Shown here in pieces: positions 14,378 through 25,815 of a DNA stretch of 29,296 bases (position 1 is its first letter; the number at the start of each line of letters is the position of its first letter). This DNA comes from a virus: the IMG/VR virus record IMGVR_UViG_3300047440_000822, positions 1 to 29,296 of that record. One strand, given 5' to 3'. The notes under the pieces were generated by a model, which did no database searches, was not told where the DNA came from, and saw only the letters and a program-made list of their open reading frames with translations. The position numbers were made by a program, and so were the translations under genes.

Positions 14378-14523
14378 CCAGGCGCTCCGCGTGCGGTCAT
14401 CGTTCGTCGAAGTTCATCGGCGGCGAATGCCTGTCGTGCGGTCGCGCGGTGAAATTCGAGATTGTCATTCTTATAGTTATGATTCTGATGGGAATCTTCC
14501 ATGGAAGGCTGGGCGGCCTGTGA
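14374..14523 (+). CDS. Small Cys knuckle plus membrane helix protein, 49 aa
   Basis: It starts at GTG 14374 (GTGA overlap) and ends in a GTGA overlap with the sigma-like gene. An N-terminal CGHRSSKFIGGECLSCG (C-x-H...C-x-x-C) zinc knuckle is followed by a hydrophobic helix (FEIVILIVMILMGIF). This knuckle-plus-anchor layout recurs at 17731. No family is recognised. Confidence 0.5.
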   Translation: MTRRSACGHRSSKFIGGECLSCGRAVKFEIVILIVMILMGIFHGRLGGL

Positions 14524-15032
14524 CGGATTTCGCCGAGCGGCTCGACGCCCTCCGCCCGCGGCTGCGGAACACGCTGCGGCGCCATGGGTGCCGCGACTAC
14601 TTCCTCGACGACGCGGTGCAGCAGGGGGTCATGCAGGCGTGGCGCCGGCGCGGCACGTTCCGCGGCGAGGCGGCGCTCGCGACTTGGGCGACCCGCGTGA
14701 CGCTGAACGAGTTCTTCATGATGGCGCGCGGGAGCAAGATGAGCCGCAACACGCGGAACATGAACGAGGCGGACGAGCTCCGGGCGGCGAGCGAGCCGGA
14801 CCCGGCGCCGTCGCCGCTCGACCTGGCCGTCGCCGGCGAGGCGCGCCGCCGCCTGGTGCGCGCGATCGCGCGGCTGCCGCTCGGGCAGCGGTCGATCCTG
14901 GCGCGTCAGCTGCTGGTCGACGAGACGTACAAGGAGCTCGCGGCGAGCTTCGGCACGACCGAGTCGAACATGAAGAGCCAGGCGTTCAAGGGGCGCGCGA
15001 AGGTGCGCCGGATGCTGGAGGCACGGGCGTGA
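14520..15032 (+). CDS. Sigma-70-like RNA polymerase sigma factor (ECF-type)
   Basis: This 170-residue protein has the two-domain layout of small sigma factors. Region 2 is seen in YFLDDAVQQGVMQAWRRRGT, then ALATWATRVTLNEFFMMAR (about residues 27-77). Region 4 covers LVRAIARLPLGQRSIL, ELAASFGTTESNMKSQAFKG and RAKVRRML (about 119-166), a helix-turn-helix with the usual S-x-x-x-K-S/R recognition helix. It would direct host RNA polymerase to its own promoters, perhaps the phage late genes. GTG 14520 is in a GTGA overlap. A sigma-like gene between terminase and portal suggests a late transcription switch; the target promoters are not identifiable by eye. Confidence 0.82.
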   Translation: MTDFAERLDALRPRLRNTLRRHGCRDYFLDDAVQQGVMQAWRRRGTFRGEAALATWATRVTLNEFFMMARGSKMSRNTRNMNEADELRAASEPDPAPSPLDLAVAGEARRRLVRAIARLPLGQRSILARQLLVDETYKELAASFGTTESNMKSQAFKGRAKVRRMLEARA

Positions 15033-18705: not shown

Positions 18706-20931
18706 TTGGCCAGCCCGAACAATTCGATTGTCATCCGCCCGCTGACGCAGCTGGCGTCGCTGTTCTCCGACAAGAAGCCGGCGTTCGAGGCCCCGGCGGG
18801 CTACATCGAGGGCGTCGACGCCGCGAAGTGGCCGTCGCCGCTGCAGCCCGTCGCGCCGATGGGCCCCGCCGGCACCGAGCCGAAGGCCTTCCAGTTCTAC
18901 GAGGGGCAGAACCTGCAGTGGACGCCGCGCTTCGACGCGGAGTACTCCGCCGCGGACCTCAAGGCGCTCGCCACCTACCCGCTCGTCCGCATCTGCATCG
19001 AGAACGTGAAGGACGTGATCTGCGACATGCCGTGGCAGATCCGGCCGCGCCCGACGCCGGGCGAGTCGATCAAGGAGAACGCGAAGCGCGCGGCCGGCGA
19101 CAAGGCGATCCTGAAGGCGACGCGCTTCCTCGAGCGCCCCGACGGCCAGCACACGTGGGACGAGTGGCTGCGCCCGTGGCTCGACGACCTCATCGTGATC
19201 GACGCGCCCACGGTCCTGGTGCGCCGCAACTTCGGCAAGGGCACGCGGCCCGGCGGCGACGGCGACCTCCGCGAGCTGCGCGTCCTGCGCGGCGACTCGA
19301 TCTCCGTGTACATCGACCAGAACGGCTGGAGCCCGAACCCGCCGTCGATCGCGTACGCCCAAAACTGGTGGGGCCTGCCGCTCGTGGACATGACGCGCGA
19401 CCAGTGCCTGTACCGCCCGCGGAACATCGCGCCGCGCAACACGGTGGCGTCGCAGCTCTACGGCTACTCCCCGGTCGAGCAGCTCGCGCCGGAGCTGCAG
19501 ATCGGGATCGCCCGTCTCGCGTTCGTCCTCGCCTACTACAAGGACGGCTCGGTGCCGGGGGTCGTGCAGGTCGCGCCGAAGGGGACGACGCCGGAGCAGA
19601 TCAAGGAGGCGGCGCAGTGGATCAACTCGGACATCGCGGGGAACCTCGCGAAGCGCCGGCAGTGGAACATCATCCAGGGCTTCCAGGAGGACGGGAAGGC
19701 CGAGCAGATCATCATGACGAAGGAGCCGCTGCTCGCCGACCTCTACGACGAGAAGCACATCCGCGAGGTGGCGTTCGGCATCGGCGTCAGCCCGCAGCGG
19801 CTGATGAAGTCGATGAACCGCGCGTCGGCGGAGCAGTCGGACGACGCGGCGGAGACCGAGGGCACGCGGCCGTACGTGCGGTCGGTGCGCGGCCTCATGA
19901 ACCACGTGCTGCAGGTGGTGATGGGGCTCGAGGAGTACGAGTTCGTCATCGACCCGGTCAAAGAGCTGGACATGGCGAAGCAGGCCGAGGCGCTGACGGC
20001 GAAGGTCGGCAAGGCGCTGATGACGCCGAACGAGGGCCGCGAGGCGCTGGGCCTCGACCGCGACCCGACGCCCGAGGCCGACAAGCTCGGCGTGATCACA
20101 GGCACGGGCTTCGTGACGCTCGAGCAGACGGCGCAGGCGGCGAACACCGCGGCGCAGGCCGCAGTTCAACCGGGAGGGAAAGATGGCGGTGATAACGCGC
20201 CGGTGGGTAAGCCGGGAGGAGCTGGAAAGGGAGCGGACGCGGGAAAGTCCGCGCGCTCGAAACCTAATGGACATGATCCAGCGGAGGATCATCGCGTACC
20301 GCGACCAGTTAACTCGCTCGGGTTCGCCGCGGGAGCCGCGCCCGTAGCGCCTCCGGCGGTCGGCAAGTACTCCGAGGACGAGGCGCGCGACGAGCAGGGG
20401 CGGTGGACAGAGGGCGGAGAATCTTCGGCTGATGAGAAGGAGAAGTTGAGTAAAGCATTATGGAGCTGGCAGTCGGGCAGCGATGATGAAGGGGCAAAGG
20501 CCGAGCATTACATCCAATCGGGCGAGCCGGAAGGCAGCGAGATCGTGAAGGGCATCCGGAACGAGACCTTCGGCGTGACGGCCTGGCGCGGCATGTTCGT
20601 TGAGAACGACGACGCGATCCTTAAGCTGAAGACGGGGGACACGCTGCAGCTGATGCCGAGCTCGTTCAGCGATGACCGTAAAGTAGCCGCAAAGTTTTCA
20701 ACGGGTGAGACGCTCGGGATGGAGGGCGAAAAGGGCTGGGGTGGGGTCATATTGCGCGTTAACAAGACCGCTGATGGGGCCGAGCCGCACGGCATCATGG
20801 TCGGCGACCGCGGTCATCCGGCTTGGCGGCAAGAAAATGAGATCATCACCGGCGGTCAGTTCACCGTGACGCGCGTCAACAAGTCGAAGAAGGCTACAAC
20901 GCTTTTTATCTCGCAGAAGGGGATATTCTGA
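18706..20931 (+). CDS. Portal protein fused to a C-terminal ADP-ribosyltransferase-like domain
   Basis: TTG 18706 begins a 741-residue protein. Residues 1-490 are a phage portal (LKALATYPLVRICIENVKDV, NTVASQLYGYSPVEQL, VAFGIGVSPQRLMKSMNRAS), the dodecameric DNA channel at the head vertex. After a Gly/Ala/Pro-rich linker (about 490-553) comes KYSEDEARDEQGRW (K554), then an ART-like domain: AWRGM (R628), MPSSFSD (S652-S655), strands GVILRVNK, and RQENEIIT with E710-x-E712. These are the R, S-T-S-like and E-x-E motifs of arginine-type ADP-ribosyltransferases, in the right order and spacing. The portal call is firm; activity of the ART part is inferred. A second gene overlaps the linker in another frame. 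Confidence 0.9.
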   Translation: MASPNNSIVIRPLTQLASLFSDKKPAFEAPAGYIEGVDAAKWPSPLQPVAPMGPAGTEPKAFQFYEGQNLQWTPRFDAEYSAADLKALATYPLVRICIENVKDVICDMPWQIRPRPTPGESIKENAKRAAGDKAILKATRFLERPDGQHTWDEWLRPWLDDLIVIDAPTVLVRRNFGKGTRPGGDGDLRELRVLRGDSISVYIDQNGWSPNPPSIAYAQNWWGLPLVDMTRDQCLYRPRNIAPRNTVASQLYGYSPVEQLAPELQIGIARLAFVLAYYKDGSVPGVVQVAPKGTTPEQIKEAAQWINSDIAGNLAKRRQWNIIQGFQEDGKAEQIIMTKEPLLADLYDEKHIREVAFGIGVSPQRLMKSMNRASAEQSDDAAETEGTRPYVRSVRGLMNHVLQVVMGLEEYEFVIDPVKELDMAKQAEALTAKVGKALMTPNEGREALGLDRDPTPEADKLGVITGTGFVTLEQTAQAANTAAQAAVQPGGKDGGDNAPVGKPGGAGKGADAGKSARSKPNGHDPAEDHRVPRPVNSLGFAAGAAPVAPPAVGKYSEDEARDEQGRWTEGGESSADEKEKLSKALWSWQSGSDDEGAKAEHYIQSGEPEGSEIVKGIRNETFGVTAWRGMFVENDDAILKLKTGDTLQLMPSSFSDDRKVAAKFSTGETLGMEGEKGWGGVILRVNKTADGAEPHGIMVGDRGHPAWRQENEIITGGQFTVTRVNKSKKATTLFISQKGIF
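20183..20347 (+). CDS. Out-of-frame 54-aa gene overlapping the portal linker
   Basis: Within the portal gene's linker, ATG 20183 follows GGGAGGGAAAG and opens a 54-codon frame ending at TAG 20345-20347. It encodes a very basic helical product (MAVITRRWVSREELERERTR, then ARNLMDMIQRRIIAYRDQLT). Third codon positions are mostly G or C in this frame, while the portal frame here is closer to random and encodes low-complexity Gly/Ala/Pro sequence. This suggests the small frame is the older coding sequence, with the portal frame extended across it. It may also be fortuitous. Confidence 0.45.
   Translation: MAVITRRWVSREELERERTRESPRARNLMDMIQRRIIAYRDQLTRSGSPREPRP
20365..20406 (+). repeat. KYS-motif copy 1 (in portal)
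   Basis: This encodes KYSEDEARDEQGRW at the junction between the portal linker and the ART-like domain. The DNA differs from copy 2 at two positions in 42. Confidence 0.8.
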
Positions 20932-20933
20932 CC

Positions 20934-23852
20934 GTGCAGATTGTCGAGTACAACTCGGAGCTGTTGACGGTGCCATTCGACCCGCAGCGGATGACGCGCG
21001 GGAAGACGGAGAAGCTCGCCAAGTACTCGGAGGACGAGGCGCGCGACGAGCAGGGACGGTGGAGCTCTTCCGGCGGCTCCGGCGAGAACCGCCAGTTTCT
21101 CGACATCGTCGCCGAAGACCACGGGGCGAAGGTTGACTCGAGCGGCGTGACGGGCTCATTCGAACTGAAGCGCGACGAGACGTTCTACCGCGCGGAGGCC
21201 AATCCCGATCGCGCGCGGCGCTCTGGGTTGAAGGCGAGCCTGCCGCCGGAGGTAGCGGAGGGCGCCGACAAGGAAGATCACAAGGCCCTGACCGGCGTGT
21301 ACCTCACCGATAAGGAGACGGCGACCGCGTACTTGAACGGACGCCTCGATGGCAAGGGCGAGGTGATCGCGGTCCATCTTCCGGAGGGGACGAGAATCTA
21401 CCAGGACCCCGTGGACGACGAGGCGATCTTCGTGCGGGAGAGCCTTCCATCGCACGCGGTCGAGGGCGGCAGGCAGATGAGGGTATTCAAGCTCTCCCAC
21501 GGCGACGCGCGGACGATCATCCACCCGGGGCGCCTAGCGCCGACGTCGATCCTGGCGAAGCACCGGCTCGAGAAGATCCTGGCCAACGCCTTCGGCAAGA
21601 TGCGCCGGAAGACGGTGCGCGCGCTGCGGCGCGAGGCGGGGATCGCGGCGAAGGCGCTGCTCTCCAAGCAGCGCAAGTTTGACTCCGTGCAGTTCAATCT
21701 CGACGAGGCGGACGCAAAGAAGGTCCTCGCGATCGCGGTCGACGAGCAGGACTGGGACCCGAAGGGACGCGACCTCGAGCCGCACGCCACGGTGCTGTTC
21801 GGCTTTGACGGCGCGACGTTCGACCAGGTCGAGGCGCTCACGCGCGGCACGGGTGACTGCCCCGCGGAGCTCGGCGAGCTGTTCTGCTTCCCGGCCGGAG
21901 ACCACGGGTCGCCGCTGGTGATCCGGTTGAAGTCGCCGGAGCTGGTCGCGCTGCACGACAGGCTGTCCGCGCTGCCGCACACGGACACGCACGATGAATA
22001 CATCCCGCACGTCTGCGTCGGCTATCTTAAGCCCGAGGCGGCGGAGAAGTATGTCGGTAAAGACTATGCGGGCCAGGGTGAGACGATCGTCCTCAAGGAT
22101 CTGATCTTCTCGCTGCGCGACAAGACGCGCTTGTCGTTGGAGAAGGCGCTCGAGTATCTGAAGTATAGTGAAGATCAAGCAAGAGATGAGAATGGAAGAT
22201 TTGCGTCTGAAGAAGACTCTGAGGGACGCGCAAAAACAATTTTGTACCATGGAACTACCGAAGAGGTAGCAAAAAAGATTTTTGATGAAGGATTAGACGC
22301 TTCAAGAGCTCCTGGGGGAACCTTTGCCACTGATTCCAAGCTTAGCGCGTTGGGGTACGCGAAGGGAGGAGCAAAATTTGAAGCTATTGAACGGGGAATG
22401 TCGAAGGAAGATCGTAACAATCAATTAATCGGATTGGTGATCATAAAAGACCCCGAAAAAGCGGGGTTCAAGTATCTTCAAGGAGCCCCGGGATATTATT
22501 CTTCTACTAGCAATGTTTCTCCTAACTTTGTAGATCGTGTTGAATTTTATAGATATGGAGATATATCGTCTTCAAATCCAAAACCAGCAAAAATTATTTC
22601 TAAAAATGCGTCAAAAAATAGTGTGGAAATTTACGTTCCAATTTTACTGAAAGAAAGTAAGACTGAGAAATTTACGAAGGCACTCGACGACGCGACGCAG
22701 CAGATCCTCGACTCGCTCGCCGCGGAGTGGGAGGCGCTGGCGAAGGCCGCCGTCCTGCCGCTGACCGACGCGTCGACCGCGGGCGCCGACGCCGGCGCGC
22801 TGCAGCTCGACATCACCGGCGACGACATGCTCGGCCGGGTCAACACCGTGGCCCGGGAGTGGGCCGCGGACCGCGCCGCGGAGCTGGTCGGCATGCGGTT
22901 CACGGATGACGGCGACCTGGTTCCGAACCCCGACGCGCGCTGGGCGATCTCCGATACGACGCGGGAGAGGTTGCGCGACGCGATCGCGCGGGTCTTCGCG
23001 GAGGAGCAGCCGACGCTGAAGGACATCGAGGACGCGATCGCGGACGCGGGGATCTTCGACGACAACCGCGCGACGATGATCGCCCGGACCGAGGTCAGCC
23101 GGGCGCAGGCGCAGGGGAACCTCGACGCCTGGAAGACGAGCGGGATGGTCGAAGAGGTCAACTGGGTCCTGTCCGACGATCACGATGACGATGATATCTG
23201 CAATGAGAACGAAGAGGAGAGCCCGTACGCGCTGGGCGAGGTGCCGGAGTTCCCGGCGCACCCCAACTGCATGTGCGGGCTGACGCTCGGCCGGCTGAAG
23301 GGCGAGCCGGAGGACGCGGAGAAGGTGCTGAAATACTCGGATGACGAGGATCGCGACGAAAATGGACGTTGGACCGGTGGTGCCACGCACGGAACGTCGG
23401 TGTCCGCGGCGAAGAAGATCATGAAGGAAGGAATTAAATCAGGAAAAGTTTTAGGAAATGGGCAGCTCGGCTCTGCCTATGTCTCGCGCGACCCCGTGGT
23501 GGCGTTGTCGTTCGCGAAAGAAGCTGGGATGAACGAGTACACGCGGCTTTATCCTAACGCGCGCGTCGCTGAGCTTGACAGCAAAGCGAAGGCCGCTCTC
23601 GTGGTTCTCAAGCCTGGCGTAGAAAATAATTGGACACAGGAGCCCGATCGCCAGATTTTTAGGACCGAGAAGACGATTCCGGCTTCTAAGATTGATCGTG
23701 TGGAGATTTATTCGGTGAAGTCGATCAAGGATAGCATTGGCACGGGAAGTCTTCCGACCCCGGAAAAAATTATTCGCAAGGACGCTTCATCATCTGAGGA
23801 AGACACATTTTACATCGCGGCAATCTTTGAAGAGAATGCGGAGGAGAGCTAG
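20934..23852 (+). CDS. MuF-type head morphogenesis protein with three ART-like domains and a 2H phosphoesterase domain
   Basis: GTG 20934 starts a 972-residue mosaic. Order: short N-terminus; KYS motif (K30); ART-like 1 with FYRAE (R86), TGVYLTDKETA (T120-) and DDEAIFVRES (E163-E169); a helix LEKILANAFGKMRRKTVRAL typical of the MuF N-terminus; a 2H phosphoesterase with PHATV (H284, T286) and PHVCV (H359, C361); KYS motif (K410); ART-like 2 with LYHGTT (H439), GTFATD (F464), DRVEFY; then the MuF core with MIARTEVSRAQAQ (R718-E720) and PAHPNCMCG (H776-C781); KYS motif (K800); ART-like 3 with HGTS (H819), AYVSRD (Y849), FRTEKTIP (E912). MuF proteins bind the portal inside the head. The 22165-22675 segment is clearly A/T-richer, a sign of recent acquisition. 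Confidence 0.88.
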   Translation: MQIVEYNSELLTVPFDPQRMTRGKTEKLAKYSEDEARDEQGRWSSSGGSGENRQFLDIVAEDHGAKVDSSGVTGSFELKRDETFYRAEANPDRARRSGLKASLPPEVAEGADKEDHKALTGVYLTDKETATAYLNGRLDGKGEVIAVHLPEGTRIYQDPVDDEAIFVRESLPSHAVEGGRQMRVFKLSHGDARTIIHPGRLAPTSILAKHRLEKILANAFGKMRRKTVRALRREAGIAAKALLSKQRKFDSVQFNLDEADAKKVLAIAVDEQDWDPKGRDLEPHATVLFGFDGATFDQVEALTRGTGDCPAELGELFCFPAGDHGSPLVIRLKSPELVALHDRLSALPHTDTHDEYIPHVCVGYLKPEAAEKYVGKDYAGQGETIVLKDLIFSLRDKTRLSLEKALEYLKYSEDQARDENGRFASEEDSEGRAKTILYHGTTEEVAKKIFDEGLDASRAPGGTFATDSKLSALGYAKGGAKFEAIERGMSKEDRNNQLIGLVIIKDPEKAGFKYLQGAPGYYSSTSNVSPNFVDRVEFYRYGDISSSNPKPAKIISKNASKNSVEIYVPILLKESKTEKFTKALDDATQQILDSLAAEWEALAKAAVLPLTDASTAGADAGALQLDITGDDMLGRVNTVAREWAADRAAELVGMRFTDDGDLVPNPDARWAISDTTRERLRDAIARVFAEEQPTLKDIEDAIADAGIFDDNRATMIARTEVSRAQAQGNLDAWKTSGMVEEVNWVLSDDHDDDDICNENEEESPYALGEVPEFPAHPNCMCGLTLGRLKGEPEDAEKVLKYSDDEDRDENGRWTGGATHGTSVSAAKKIMKEGIKSGKVLGNGQLGSAYVSRDPVVALSFAKEAGMNEYTRLYPNARVAELDSKAKAALVVLKPGVENNWTQEPDRQIFRTEKTIPASKIDRVEIYSVKSIKDSIGTGSLPTPEKIIRKDASSSEEDTFYIAAIFEENAEES
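21021..21062 (+). repeat. KYS-motif copy 2 (MuF protein N-terminus)
   Basis: This encodes KYSEDEARDEQGRW, identical in protein to copy 1 and 40 of 42 identical in DNA. It precedes ART-like domain 1. Confidence 0.8.
22161..22202 (+). repeat. KYS-motif copy 3 (MuF protein, middle)
   Basis: This encodes KYSEDQARDENGRF. It marks the start of the A/T-rich segment carrying ART-like domain 2, directly after the 2H domain. Its first 11 bases (AAGTATAGTGA) are identical to copy 5. Confidence 0.75.
23331..23372 (+). repeat. KYS-motif copy 4 (MuF protein C-terminus)
   Basis: This encodes KYSDDEDRDENGRW between the MuF core and ART-like domain 3. Confidence 0.75.
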
Positions 23853-23853
23853 C

Positions 23854-25815
23854 ATGCCATACTCGACCGTAGATCAGGTTCCGTCCTACGTGCCGGCGGG
23901 AAAGCGCGCGCAGTGGATGGCCGTCTGGAACTCGGCGCGCAAGGCCGCGCTGAAGGACGGGATGCCGGACAAGGACGCGGAGGCGAAGGCGTTCCGCGAG
24001 GCCAACGGCGTCGCCGGGCCCGGGTCGGAGAAGATCACGAAGTATAGTGACGACCAAGAACGCGATGATCATGGACGTTGGACCGAGGCAGCTTCAACCA
24101 AGAAAGATCATCGTGATGCTATGAAGTGGCACGACGCGAAAGCGGCGGAGGAAGAAGCTGCAGGACATCCGGTGACGGCAGATTACCACCGTGAAGCTGC
24201 AGGAAAACATCAATATGCGGTCAGCATGGCAGGGAAAAATGGTCCTGGTGTTGACCCGGATCATTCAAAATCAGCAAATCGATCTTCAAAAGAAGCTAAC
24301 CGGGCTTCTCAGTACGCGGCAAGACAAGATAAAGAAAAATCATCAGGAGGTGAAATGAAGAAGACCGAGGTGCCGGACAACGAGAAGCAGAGCCAGGTCG
24401 GGGTCGGCTACGAGAACCCGAGCTCCCGGCCGGGCGCGACGTGCGCCGGCTGCGTCCACTTCATCTCGCCCGACCGCTGCGAGCACGTGCAGGGCCCGAT
24501 CGCCGCGGCGGCGTGGTGCCTGAAATTCATCAAGTGCGCTGAGGAGGAAAAGACCGTGACGACGACGCTCAAGAAGTTCATCCCGTTCGCGAAGGTGGAC
24601 AACTCGATCGACCCCGCGACCAAGCTGCCGCGCCGCGAGGTGTGGGGCATCGTCACCGCCGAGGTCCCCGACAAGGAGGACGAGGTCTGCGACTACGCGA
24701 AGTCAAAGCCGTTCTACCAGGCGGTGATCGACGAGATGTCCAAGGCCACGGACGGCAGGAACATGTTCCCGCTGCGCGAGATGCACGGGCTCTCCGCCGC
24801 GGGCAAGTGCATTGGCTTCGAGTTCCGCGACGCCGACCGCGAGATCTTCATGGGCTTCAAGGTCGTCGACGACCAGGCCTGGAAGAAGGTCGACGAGGGC
24901 GTGTACACGGGCTTCAGCCAGGGCGGGTCGCTCGTCGGCGCGCTGGCGCCGGACCCGGTCTTCGAGGGCTGCATGCGCTACACGGCGAACCCGAGCGAGG
25001 TGTCGCTGGTCGACAACCCGTGCCTCGCGGCCGCGCACTTCGCGTACGTGAAGGCGGACGGCTCGGTCGAGCTGCGTAAGTTCAAGCGGACGGAGGTCGC
25101 GCCGACGTCTACGCGGCTCGAGAAGCTGGAAAAAGAAGTTGCGGATCTTCGTAAGGCGACGGGCACGGCCCCGCTCACGAAGACGGTCGACGGCGAGGCG
25201 CTCGCCGCGGACGCGTTCGCGATCGCCGGCGACGCGAAGAAAGTTTCCACGTGGCGGCTGCCGCTCAGGTTCGCGACGAAGCAGAAGTCGGCGGCCTACG
25301 TGGCGCGCGCCGCGCTGCTCGTCAAGTTCAGCCCGAGGCTGTTCACGGACGCGGAGGCGAAGCAGGCCCTGAAGGCGATCGCGACGGCCGCGGACTGGGC
25401 GGGGGTGGACCCGCTGGCCGTCGTCCTCGAGTTCATCAAGGTGGGCGACCTCCTGCGCGGCGGGCTGCGCAAGCGCGTCAACAAGCTGGCGAAGACCCGG
25501 GACCCGGGCCACCGGCTGAGCTTCGTGGACGCGGACCTCGGGAAGATGTCGATCGTCGCGCAGCGCCCGGCGAACGCGCAGGCGGACCTGGAGAAGGGCA
25601 TGTACGAGGTCGGGCAGCTCGCCTGCCTCGTGCAGCAGCTCTCGTACCTCGTCTACGCCGCGGTGTACGAGCGCGAGCAGGAGCAGGACGGGTCGCTTCT
25701 CCCGCAGGACCTGACGGAGAACGTCGACGCGCTGCTCGACACGCTCGTCGCGATGCTCGCCGAGGAGGCGGGCGAGCTCAGCGAGGAGCTGAACTCGCGG
25801 GCCCACGGCGCCTAG
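23854..25815 (+). CDS. XkdF-like prohead protease with ChaB-like, helical and HiPIP-like modules fused in front
   Basis: ATG 23854 (GGAGGAGAGCTAGC site) gives 653 residues. Residues 1-55 resemble a ChaB domain (VPSYVPAGKRAQWMAVWNSA). A KYS motif (K63) leads to an A/T-richer helical module rich in His and Ala (to about 165). Then comes a HiPIP-like cluster C197-x2-C200-x8-C209-x12-C222. From about 235 the XkdF-like serine protease follows: REVWGIVTAEVPDKEDEV, MHG (H311), GVYTGFSQGG (S355), PSEVSLVDNPC. The C-terminal third is helical and may act as scaffold. The protease would mature the prohead. Strong internal ribosome sites before M168 and V235 suggest separate shorter products. Confidence 0.85.
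   Translation: MPYSTVDQVPSYVPAGKRAQWMAVWNSARKAALKDGMPDKDAEAKAFREANGVAGPGSEKITKYSDDQERDDHGRWTEAASTKKDHRDAMKWHDAKAAEEEAAGHPVTADYHREAAGKHQYAVSMAGKNGPGVDPDHSKSANRSSKEANRASQYAARQDKEKSSGGEMKKTEVPDNEKQSQVGVGYENPSSRPGATCAGCVHFISPDRCEHVQGPIAAAAWCLKFIKCAEEEKTVTTTLKKFIPFAKVDNSIDPATKLPRREVWGIVTAEVPDKEDEVCDYAKSKPFYQAVIDEMSKATDGRNMFPLREMHGLSAAGKCIGFEFRDADREIFMGFKVVDDQAWKKVDEGVYTGFSQGGSLVGALAPDPVFEGCMRYTANPSEVSLVDNPCLAAAHFAYVKADGSVELRKFKRTEVAPTSTRLEKLEKEVADLRKATGTAPLTKTVDGEALAADAFAIAGDAKKVSTWRLPLRFATKQKSAAYVARAALLVKFSPRLFTDAEAKQALKAIATAADWAGVDPLAVVLEFIKVGDLLRGGLRKRVNKLAKTRDPGHRLSFVDADLGKMSIVAQRPANAQADLEKGMYEVGQLACLVQQLSYLVYAAVYEREQEQDGSLLPQDLTENVDALLDTLVAMLAEEAGELSEELNSRAHGA
24040..24081 (+). repeat. KYS-motif copy 5 (protease N-terminal region)
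   Basis: This encodes KYSDDQERDDHGRW. It opens the A/T-richer helical module between the ChaB-like part and the internal start at 24355. Confidence 0.75.
24346..24357 (+). promoter_or_regulatory. Internal Shine-Dalgarno and ATG inside the protease gene
   Basis: AGGAGGTGAA precedes ATG 24355, close to a perfect anti-16S match with 5-nt spacing, in frame with the protease (residue 168, MKKTEVPDNEKQ). It would yield a 486-residue product lacking the ChaB-like and KYS modules. Confidence 0.55.
24542..24558 (+). promoter_or_regulatory. Second internal Shine-Dalgarno and GTG inside the protease gene
   Basis: AGGAGG at 24542-24547 lies 8 nt before GTG 24556, in frame (residue 235, VTTTLKKFIPFAKVD), exactly where an XkdF-like protease would normally begin. 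This could be the original protease start, now embedded in a longer frame. Confidence 0.45.

Follow-up and report, generated by a model that had tools for sequence, protein, structure and literature searches.

A peptide of 14 residues, of the type K-Y-S-[ED]-D-x-x-R-D-[ED]-x-G-R-[WF], marks accessory proteins that many uncultivated bacterial viruses fuse to their head proteins or encode next to them, and it is probably an address or processing tag for head-carried proteins. Our point of departure is a stretch of viral DNA of 29,296 nucleotides (IMG/VR record IMGVR_UViG_3300047440_000822; its whole length is hereafter called the window), in which a six-frame pattern scan finds exactly five copies, all on the plus strand and in the frame of their genes, and no sixth copy. 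The motif profile, the rows of which include near-identical relatives of the window, scores the five at E = 5e-15 to 9e-13 in the 29-kb record. An earlier note on this DNA had assigned the copies to consecutive genes, one to the portal, three to the MuF protein and one to the protease, each followed by an accessory module; the scan returns the same coordinates in frame, and the accessory modules are borne out for all five. The copy number, which had been thought striking, is not exceptional: the motif profile finds 8 or more copies in 8 of the 48 records searched, and as many as 15 in one record.

Motif copies and accessory modules in the window

The head genes of the window run in the order terminase, portal, MuF-family protein, protease-like protein, a small protein and a 553-aa protein. 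The last of these, with a relative encoded in 10 of 15 related loci that we examined, is probably the major capsid protein, a label inferred without a PHROG name. The portal gene (18706–20931, TTG start; plus strand, as are all features below) is recognized by PF04860 (E 7.7e-18, residues 94–449) and by PHROG portal matches (8e-47). Copy P1 (KYSEDEARDEQGRW, 20365–20406), detected by the pattern scan and the motif profile, stands directly ahead of a C-terminal accessory module (20407–20928) without a Pfam match. With an ART profile built from tagged cargo, the module on its own gives E 0.07–0.13 and the entire ORF gives 2.4. To the eye, the module has a residue order like that of an R-S-E type ART, a likeness that we treat as unproven. 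The predicted structures are of low confidence (mean pLDDT 49.7 for the AF2 model of the portal module and 39.5 for the other), and with these models, that of the portal module included, Foldseek gave no match at E ≤ 0.001. Sequence searches of the PDB returned nothing significant, with best E of 1.4 and 0.07.

The muf gene (20934–23852) lies directly downstream of the portal gene. Its product, which carries three motif copies, matches PHROG head-morphogenesis families down to 1e-13 and Pfam MuF at 20.4 bits, under the cut-off of 29.6. Copy M1 (KYSEDEARDEQGRW, 21021–21062), identical to P1 at 40 of 42 bases, precedes module 1 (21063–21545). Beyond it lies a 2H phosphoesterase domain (21747–22052; PF13563, 30.8 bits against a cut-off of 27), so that the MuF-family chain also holds an enzyme-like domain; at the sequence level, we regard one 2H phosphoesterase in this protein as a solid assignment. 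The domain is like Acb1 and other 2H phosphoesterases in its 2H match and in the two H-x-[TC] motifs of the protein, but unlike Acb1 in that the Pfam Acb1 family (PF23474), its second match, scores 25.8 bits with the segment, just under the cut-off of 27, and 22.0 with the whole protein. Copy M2 (KYSEDQARDENGRF, 22161–22202, GC3 0.14) is followed by the AT-rich module 2 (22203–22682), which is weakly ART-PolyVal-like (PF18760 at E 0.003; E 0.002–0.003 across searches, under the cut-off). The MuF domain itself (22941–23315, residues 670–794) was located by PHROG matches, and its region is 44% identical to that of a related locus, L148. After it come copy M3 (KYSDDEDRDENGRW, 23331–23372; motif scan and profile) and module 3 (23373–23849), the likeness of which to module 2 is seen with phmmer (E 2e-7 among six modules, 0.006–0.015 among all open frames) and in an alignment of 34% identity that includes the motif. 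Both module 2 and its look-alike, module 3, are possible ARTs, but neither reaches a cut-off.

The next gene (23854–25815, ATG start assumed) is head-maturation-protease-like: its relatives match the PHROG head maturation protease phrog_9427 at down to 3e-15, the window protein itself only at 0.009–0.013. A TTG upstream, at 23737, is a possible alternative start. Copy Pr (KYSDDQERDDHGRW, 24040–24081; pattern scan and motif profile) is followed, ahead of the protease domain, by a module of low GC3 (24082–24354) that had been described as helical. The 'ART-like domains' claimed for the window are a weak lead: module 2 has its weak match (E 0.002–0.003), module 3 its resemblance to module 2 and the portal module E 0.07–2.4, and module 1, which had also been called an ART, has no match in the Pfam and ART-profile searches. 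With the portal core, the portal module, module 2 and module 3 as queries, a search for related loci returned only two near-identical contigs of the same phage, and the window's own cassettes were thus not seen elsewhere.

Relatives with portal and MuF chains too short to accommodate such modules lack the motif. In L148, portal and MuF form a single motif-free chain of 817 aa, 53% and 44% identical to their counterparts in the window, and its MuF part ends at a stop codon where the window continues into M3 and module 3. The motif is likewise missing from the single chains of L160, L161 and L162 (758, 758 and 741 aa) and from the two of L163 (398 plus 347 aa). Portal plus MuF amounts to 741–817 aa in L148 and L160–L163 versus 1713 aa in the window, and the short chains of L160–L163 leave no space for modules. 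Such motif-free backbones indicate that the motif tracks the accessory domains and not head function. We rejected the possibility that the motif belongs to the portal or MuF fold as a structural element, given relatives at 29–53% (portal) and 34–44% (MuF) identity without it. One weak variant, WSEEDHPRDEKGEF (13 bits), stands in the portal chain of locus L158 with some 140 residues behind it, and the InPase domain of the L158 portal has no motif ahead of it; in L154, the stretch matching the post-portal part of L158 is a separate frame behind the portal. For three further loci, L164–L166, the match is to the protease alone or, at a distance, to the portal.

Base composition bears on the origin of the modules. 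GC3 is 0.91–0.96 in the structural parts, 0.86 in module 1, 0.74 in the portal module, 0.60 in module 3, 0.50 in the stretch before the protease domain and 0.31 in module 2. The best change-points, at 22164, 23331 and 24043, coincide to within one codon with the motif starts of M2, M3 and Pr (22161, 23331 and 24040; LLR 15.6–32.8), and right-hand edges lie at 22683 and 24355. Three of the five copies thus start at a change-point, as against a background in which 18 of the 1766 in-frame positions tested are no more than one codon from a change-point with an LLR of at least 6. The 1766 positions include M2 and M3; Pr and M1 lie too close to their gene starts to be counted. The coincidence implies that motif and module were apparently imported together, so that three modules of the window seem to have arrived jointly with their motif, and it indicates that motif and domain can travel as one cassette. 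P1 and M1 have no change-point at the motif, and the strongest fall in the portal gene is at 20161, 68 codons before P1. Outside the window the same test is weak, with 8 of 92 sites versus 100 of 4000 controls positive (within 5 codons, LLR 3 or more), three of the eight sites being the window's own copies in L025, a contig of this phage. When each locus is represented by its first copy, GC3 drops after the motif in 39 of 58 cases (p 0.006 in a one-sided sign test), and shifts of 0.15 or more comprise 15 falls and 2 rises; taken across the other loci, the signal is weak.

Conservation and surroundings of the motif

A degenerate DNA pattern of the motif occurs in 97 IMG/VR stretches and its reversed codon order in 1. 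Since the pattern demanded certain residues, the columns it fixes are unusable as evidence of conservation, and we counted those fixed by neither the DNA pattern nor the filter. Among 130 distinct instances, column −1 is K or R in 95, column +4 is Q or E in all 130, column +5 is P, E or A in 120, and column +13, after the aromatic residue, is T, G, A or S in 127; glycine occupies each of columns +15 and +16 in 95, often as Gly-Gly. At +2 and +8, E and D interchange. Loci L001, L104 and L106 are excluded from the counts of instances and segments, and segments sharing the same 40 residues are counted once. The 97-to-1 ratio and the conservation of the free columns led us to discard chance or a compositional artefact as the source of the motif.

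The peptide, and not the DNA, is what is conserved. Codon differences between copies within a genome are synonymous in 552 cases versus 179 non-synonymous (the pairs are non-independent), with ratios of 178:12 among the eight copies of L004 and 34:0 in L055; the near-identical window loci L011, L025 and L078 were left out of this count and of the blastp clusters. At identical residues codons differ at a rate of 0.430, versus 0.485 expected from codon usage, and this near-saturation implies that most copies are old at the DNA level. Copies also share a dialect: among 440 pairs from 26 genomes, motif identity within a genome is 0.688 versus 0.559 ± 0.008 when copies are shuffled among genomes. 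The pairs were restricted to copies whose downstream segments have no blastp match, in genomes with at least 3 copies, with at least 16 residues before the motif and 28 after it, and duplicate loci were removed from this test as from the blastp-cluster and outside-window change-point tests. The excess is greatest at −1, +5, +8, +9, +2, +4 and +12. Flank similarity within a genome is also raised (0.121 vs 0.075; 0.228 vs 0.184), so descent by duplication may explain part of the dialect; the remaining excess is a hint of a partner that would read the motif in trans.

To characterize the neighbouring domains, motif-bearing open frames were cut at the motif and each side, in segments of up to 320 aa, was searched against Pfam at E ≤ 0.01; a segment may count in several families. 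In the 81 segments before the motif, among the best 25 of 29 families, MuF is found in 9, portal families in 7, 3, 2 and 1, the prohead protease S78 in 4, XkdF in 1, 2H in 7, zeta toxin in 2 and ART in 1. The 127 segments after it match 32 families, the largest in 12 segments. The best 25 of these include the ADP-ribosyltransferase exoenzyme PF03496 (12), GNAT (6), ART-PolyVal (4), ART (4), zeta toxin (3), inorganic pyrophosphatase (2), Fic (2), papain-fold toxin (2), Nudix (1) and S78 protease (1). Among the best 25 of 63 PHROG families after the motif are Alt-like and other RNA polymerase ADP-ribosyltransferases and DarB-like antirestriction proteins, together with head maturation proteases (8, 2, 2 and 2 segments) and minor head proteins (3 and 2). 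Structural domains thus also lie behind the motif, as in the protease of the window, and the order of head domain followed by cargo is a tendency. Blastp links many of the segments, with single-linkage clusters of 33 and 18, which counts against cargo with nothing but the tag in common. The modular system proposed in the earlier note is upheld in respect of the junction: the motif separates a head protein, or a brief leader, from an accessory domain that is often effector-like.

The 235 copies are distributed over 154 open frames. No more than 60 residues separate 62 of them from the start; another 169 are internal, and 4 form C-terminal tails. Between the motif and the next copy or the end of the frame, 202 have 60–450 residues. 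Thirty-two of the near-start copies are the sole copies in complete frames of less than 420 aa, that is, in stand-alone genes. Seven frames, none of which is cut off by the end of its contig, have the motif 2–12 residues from the first possible start; these frames open at the first start codon after a stop, so that no earlier usual start codon is possible. Near-start examples include MLKYSEDQ, MSYSDDEL and MLTKYSDDE. In record G036, a leader of about 30 aa and the motif are common to four small genes, with 5 of 6 pairs scoring higher than all 300 shuffles; the rest of these proteins shows no mutual resemblance, as 0 of 6 pairs exceed 200 shuffles.

Head genes are close to many of these copies. 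The comparison covered 32 records that are at least 25 kb long and have a portal or MuF match. Of the 108 copies listed for them, 69 are no farther than 5 kb from such a match and 39 are farther away, versus 27.9 ± 8.0 close ones (largest 53) in 500 rotations of the copies round the record; since portal and MuF genes can be carriers, the closeness is partly by construction. A prevalence in non-structural proteins had been named as evidence against a cargo system, and it was found in part, in the near-start and stand-alone copies; yet the listed copies cluster near portal and MuF.

The KYSEDQ-like form coexists in single records with an HPR form, for example YDESEHPRDESGRW (G009) and WDEEKHPRDDHGRW (G020), and also with KYSEDQARVPAGSPGGGQ (G008). 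A prophage region of Rhodoblastus acidophilus has both forms, some 3.6 kb apart. The HPR form is present in Gordonia phage GodonK, near the start of gp67, which follows the portal gene, and in a prophage of Helicobacter pametensis, where it has a portal piece on one side and an LPD3 domain on the other; as a tblastn query it matches 5 phage records at E 2–8, and the 2 inspected both carry it beside the portal. For the exact form, tblastn gave no clear match among 50,697 phage records of isolated phages (best E 2 and 9), and no motif match in plasmids. In a control with the database size set near the original, the same two queries recover 105 and 103 of 118 motif loci, a yield that may differ under other settings. 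A scan of genome contigs gave 8 stretches, of which L104 and L106 were dropped as chance, L102 has a divergent form only, and in L099 and L100 the profile did not confirm the motif. A host protein family as the main source was rejected: the A3 profile occurs in 4 of 297 genomes of the Rhodoblastus order, a Rhodoblastus genome included, and the HPR variant in 1 of 398 genomes of the phylum, the same Rhodoblastus genome. A further form, 'RVPAG...GGQ[WF]', has no phage-record match by tblastn and occurs in 0 of the 398 genomes of that phylum.

Possible roles of the peptide

What could such a peptide do at so many junctions? We give an even chance to the view that it is a head-cargo tag, read in trans, that would load unrelated proteins for delivery with the DNA. 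Recognition in trans during prohead assembly would fall to one of the phage's own head proteins, be it scaffold, protease, portal or capsid protein, and unrelated tagged proteins would thereby be loaded into the head. The cargo would perhaps be trimmed free there and, delivered with the DNA, would modify or disarm the host, as the internal proteins of T4 do. A tag read during assembly, with or without trimming, is favoured by the conserved peptide, the unrelated cargo, the near-start copies and the common leader of G036. Portal and MuF get to the head anyway, so the tag would be unnecessary for domains fused to them, and since the motif follows several portal families, a single conserved partner is not obvious.

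Proteolysis offers another account, in which the motif lies at or close to a cleavage site of the head protease, and cutting releases the next domain from its carrier in the prohead with no docking involved. The many internal copies, followed by a Gly/Ser-rich stretch, fit such a maturation-protease site, as does the T4 tag, which 'permits proteolytic processing' according to the title of a reference in PMC3012670. We consider it unlikely, though deserving of some weight: the seven frames with the motif 2–12 residues from the first possible start have no carrier to free, and a strict site would not obviously allow the interchange of E and D at +2 and +8. Because cutting releases nothing where the tag is nearly at the first residue, docking or targeting appears somewhat preferable to pure proteolytic release. 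The stretch behind the motif, a flexible linker of Gly, Ser and Thr (Gly 20% and Ser 11% of the next 25 residues), with unrelated domains on either side, could also belong to a plain hinge or spacer, soluble and flexible and in need of no specific recognition. This seems rather improbable in view of the mostly synonymous changes, the genome dialects and the conservation of columns that the search left free; nor is a hinge needed by copies near the first residue.

The motif might also act as DNA, a short homology that promotes domain shuffling among head genes. Composition edges fall on the motif in three window modules, and P1 and M1 are nearly the same in bases, as such a recombination aid would predict. 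DNA identity among copies, with genome means of 0.62–0.88 and 0.55 in the lowest pair of the window, together with the mostly synonymous change, speaks against it, and we regard it as very improbable and already disfavoured. For the same predominance of synonymous change, a DNA-level repeat was rejected. To return to the tag read in trans, we put forward more tentatively the idea of a transferable address code, with lineage dialects read by a head protein, under which effector cassettes from other genomes could be joined to nearly any head gene, or exist as genes of their own, without losing their loading and delivery.

Known head-packaged proteins and the meaning of the tag

The T4 capsid targeting sequence (CTS) is described in the relevant text of PMC3012670 as a short tag that is the sole common part of diverse defence proteins packaged in the head. 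The four small genes of G036, with a common leader and motif and differing remainders, are like this system. Unlike the CTS, the present tag also resides inside portal, MuF and protease chains, in up to 15 copies per record and with several portal families, and the list of tblastn matches of the motif among the 50,697 phage records contains no T4 record, which suggests that it is not of the CTS family.

Fusions of ART, 2H and Nudix domains to MuF, portal or a capsid-processing peptidase have been reported, and their packaging and injection proposed, in accounts of polymorphic toxins and polyvalent proteins (Iyer 2017, 2022; Jamet 2017; PMC5512222, PMC9503650, PMC5576092). The window is like these systems in that its MuF chain, directly after the portal, carries a 2H domain. 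It differs in the shared peptide before the effectors, which goes unmentioned in the relevant passages of PMC5576092, PMC5512222 and PMC9503650; in their main texts the word 'linker' occurs 0 times. A text search of 5.39 million open papers, with subscription papers, figures and supplements outside its scope, found no description of a shared motif. Effector fusions to portal, MuF and protease are thus already known; the searches found no account of a common tag, which is apparently undescribed.

To our knowledge, the set of injected proteins has been established for few phages. If the proposed role is true, the injected effectors of uncultivated phages would be listable from sequence alone, unannotated domains and stand-alone genes included, and the tag would offer a handle for loading chosen proteins into phage heads. 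How effectors fused to head genes, or encoded beside them, are sorted and freed would then become a question that experiments could answer.

Forms and number of the motif

The use of both KYSEDQARDDHGRF and KYSEDQARVPAGSPGGGQ within one genome, that of record G008 (locus L121), suggests that a longer turn can take the place of the central part of the 14-residue motif. Fifteen matches to the motif are spread over ~24 kb of record G009 (L119-L120), where the variant HPR form predominates; no PF04860 portal match is present in this record.

Portal and MuF genes

The portal of locus L158 (L158:745-3489) bears an inorganic-pyrophosphatase domain (PF18823); the motif is absent ahead of this domain, and a tagged stretch comes downstream of it. 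Portal and the head-morphogenesis protein MuF are encoded by two separate genes in the window, whereas in L148, a relative of this backbone lacking the motif, they form a single chain of 817 aa (L148:1774-4224), as they likewise do in the motif-free relatives L160-L162. The window also contains a sigma-factor-like gene near the terminase (14391-15032; PHROG phrog_1740, E 3e-16).

Tagged proteins beyond the portal

Immediately 3' of the portal gene, Gordonia phage GodonK encodes gp67 (L139:4935-9374), a protein of 1479 aa in which a leader, together with the variant tag WNEALHPRGADGRW, makes up the N-terminal end. Four small genes of record G036 (L129:2842-7417) have in common a leader of ~30 aa followed by the motif, and their remainders show no match among one another. 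These four genes are candidates for a packaged set of small proteins.
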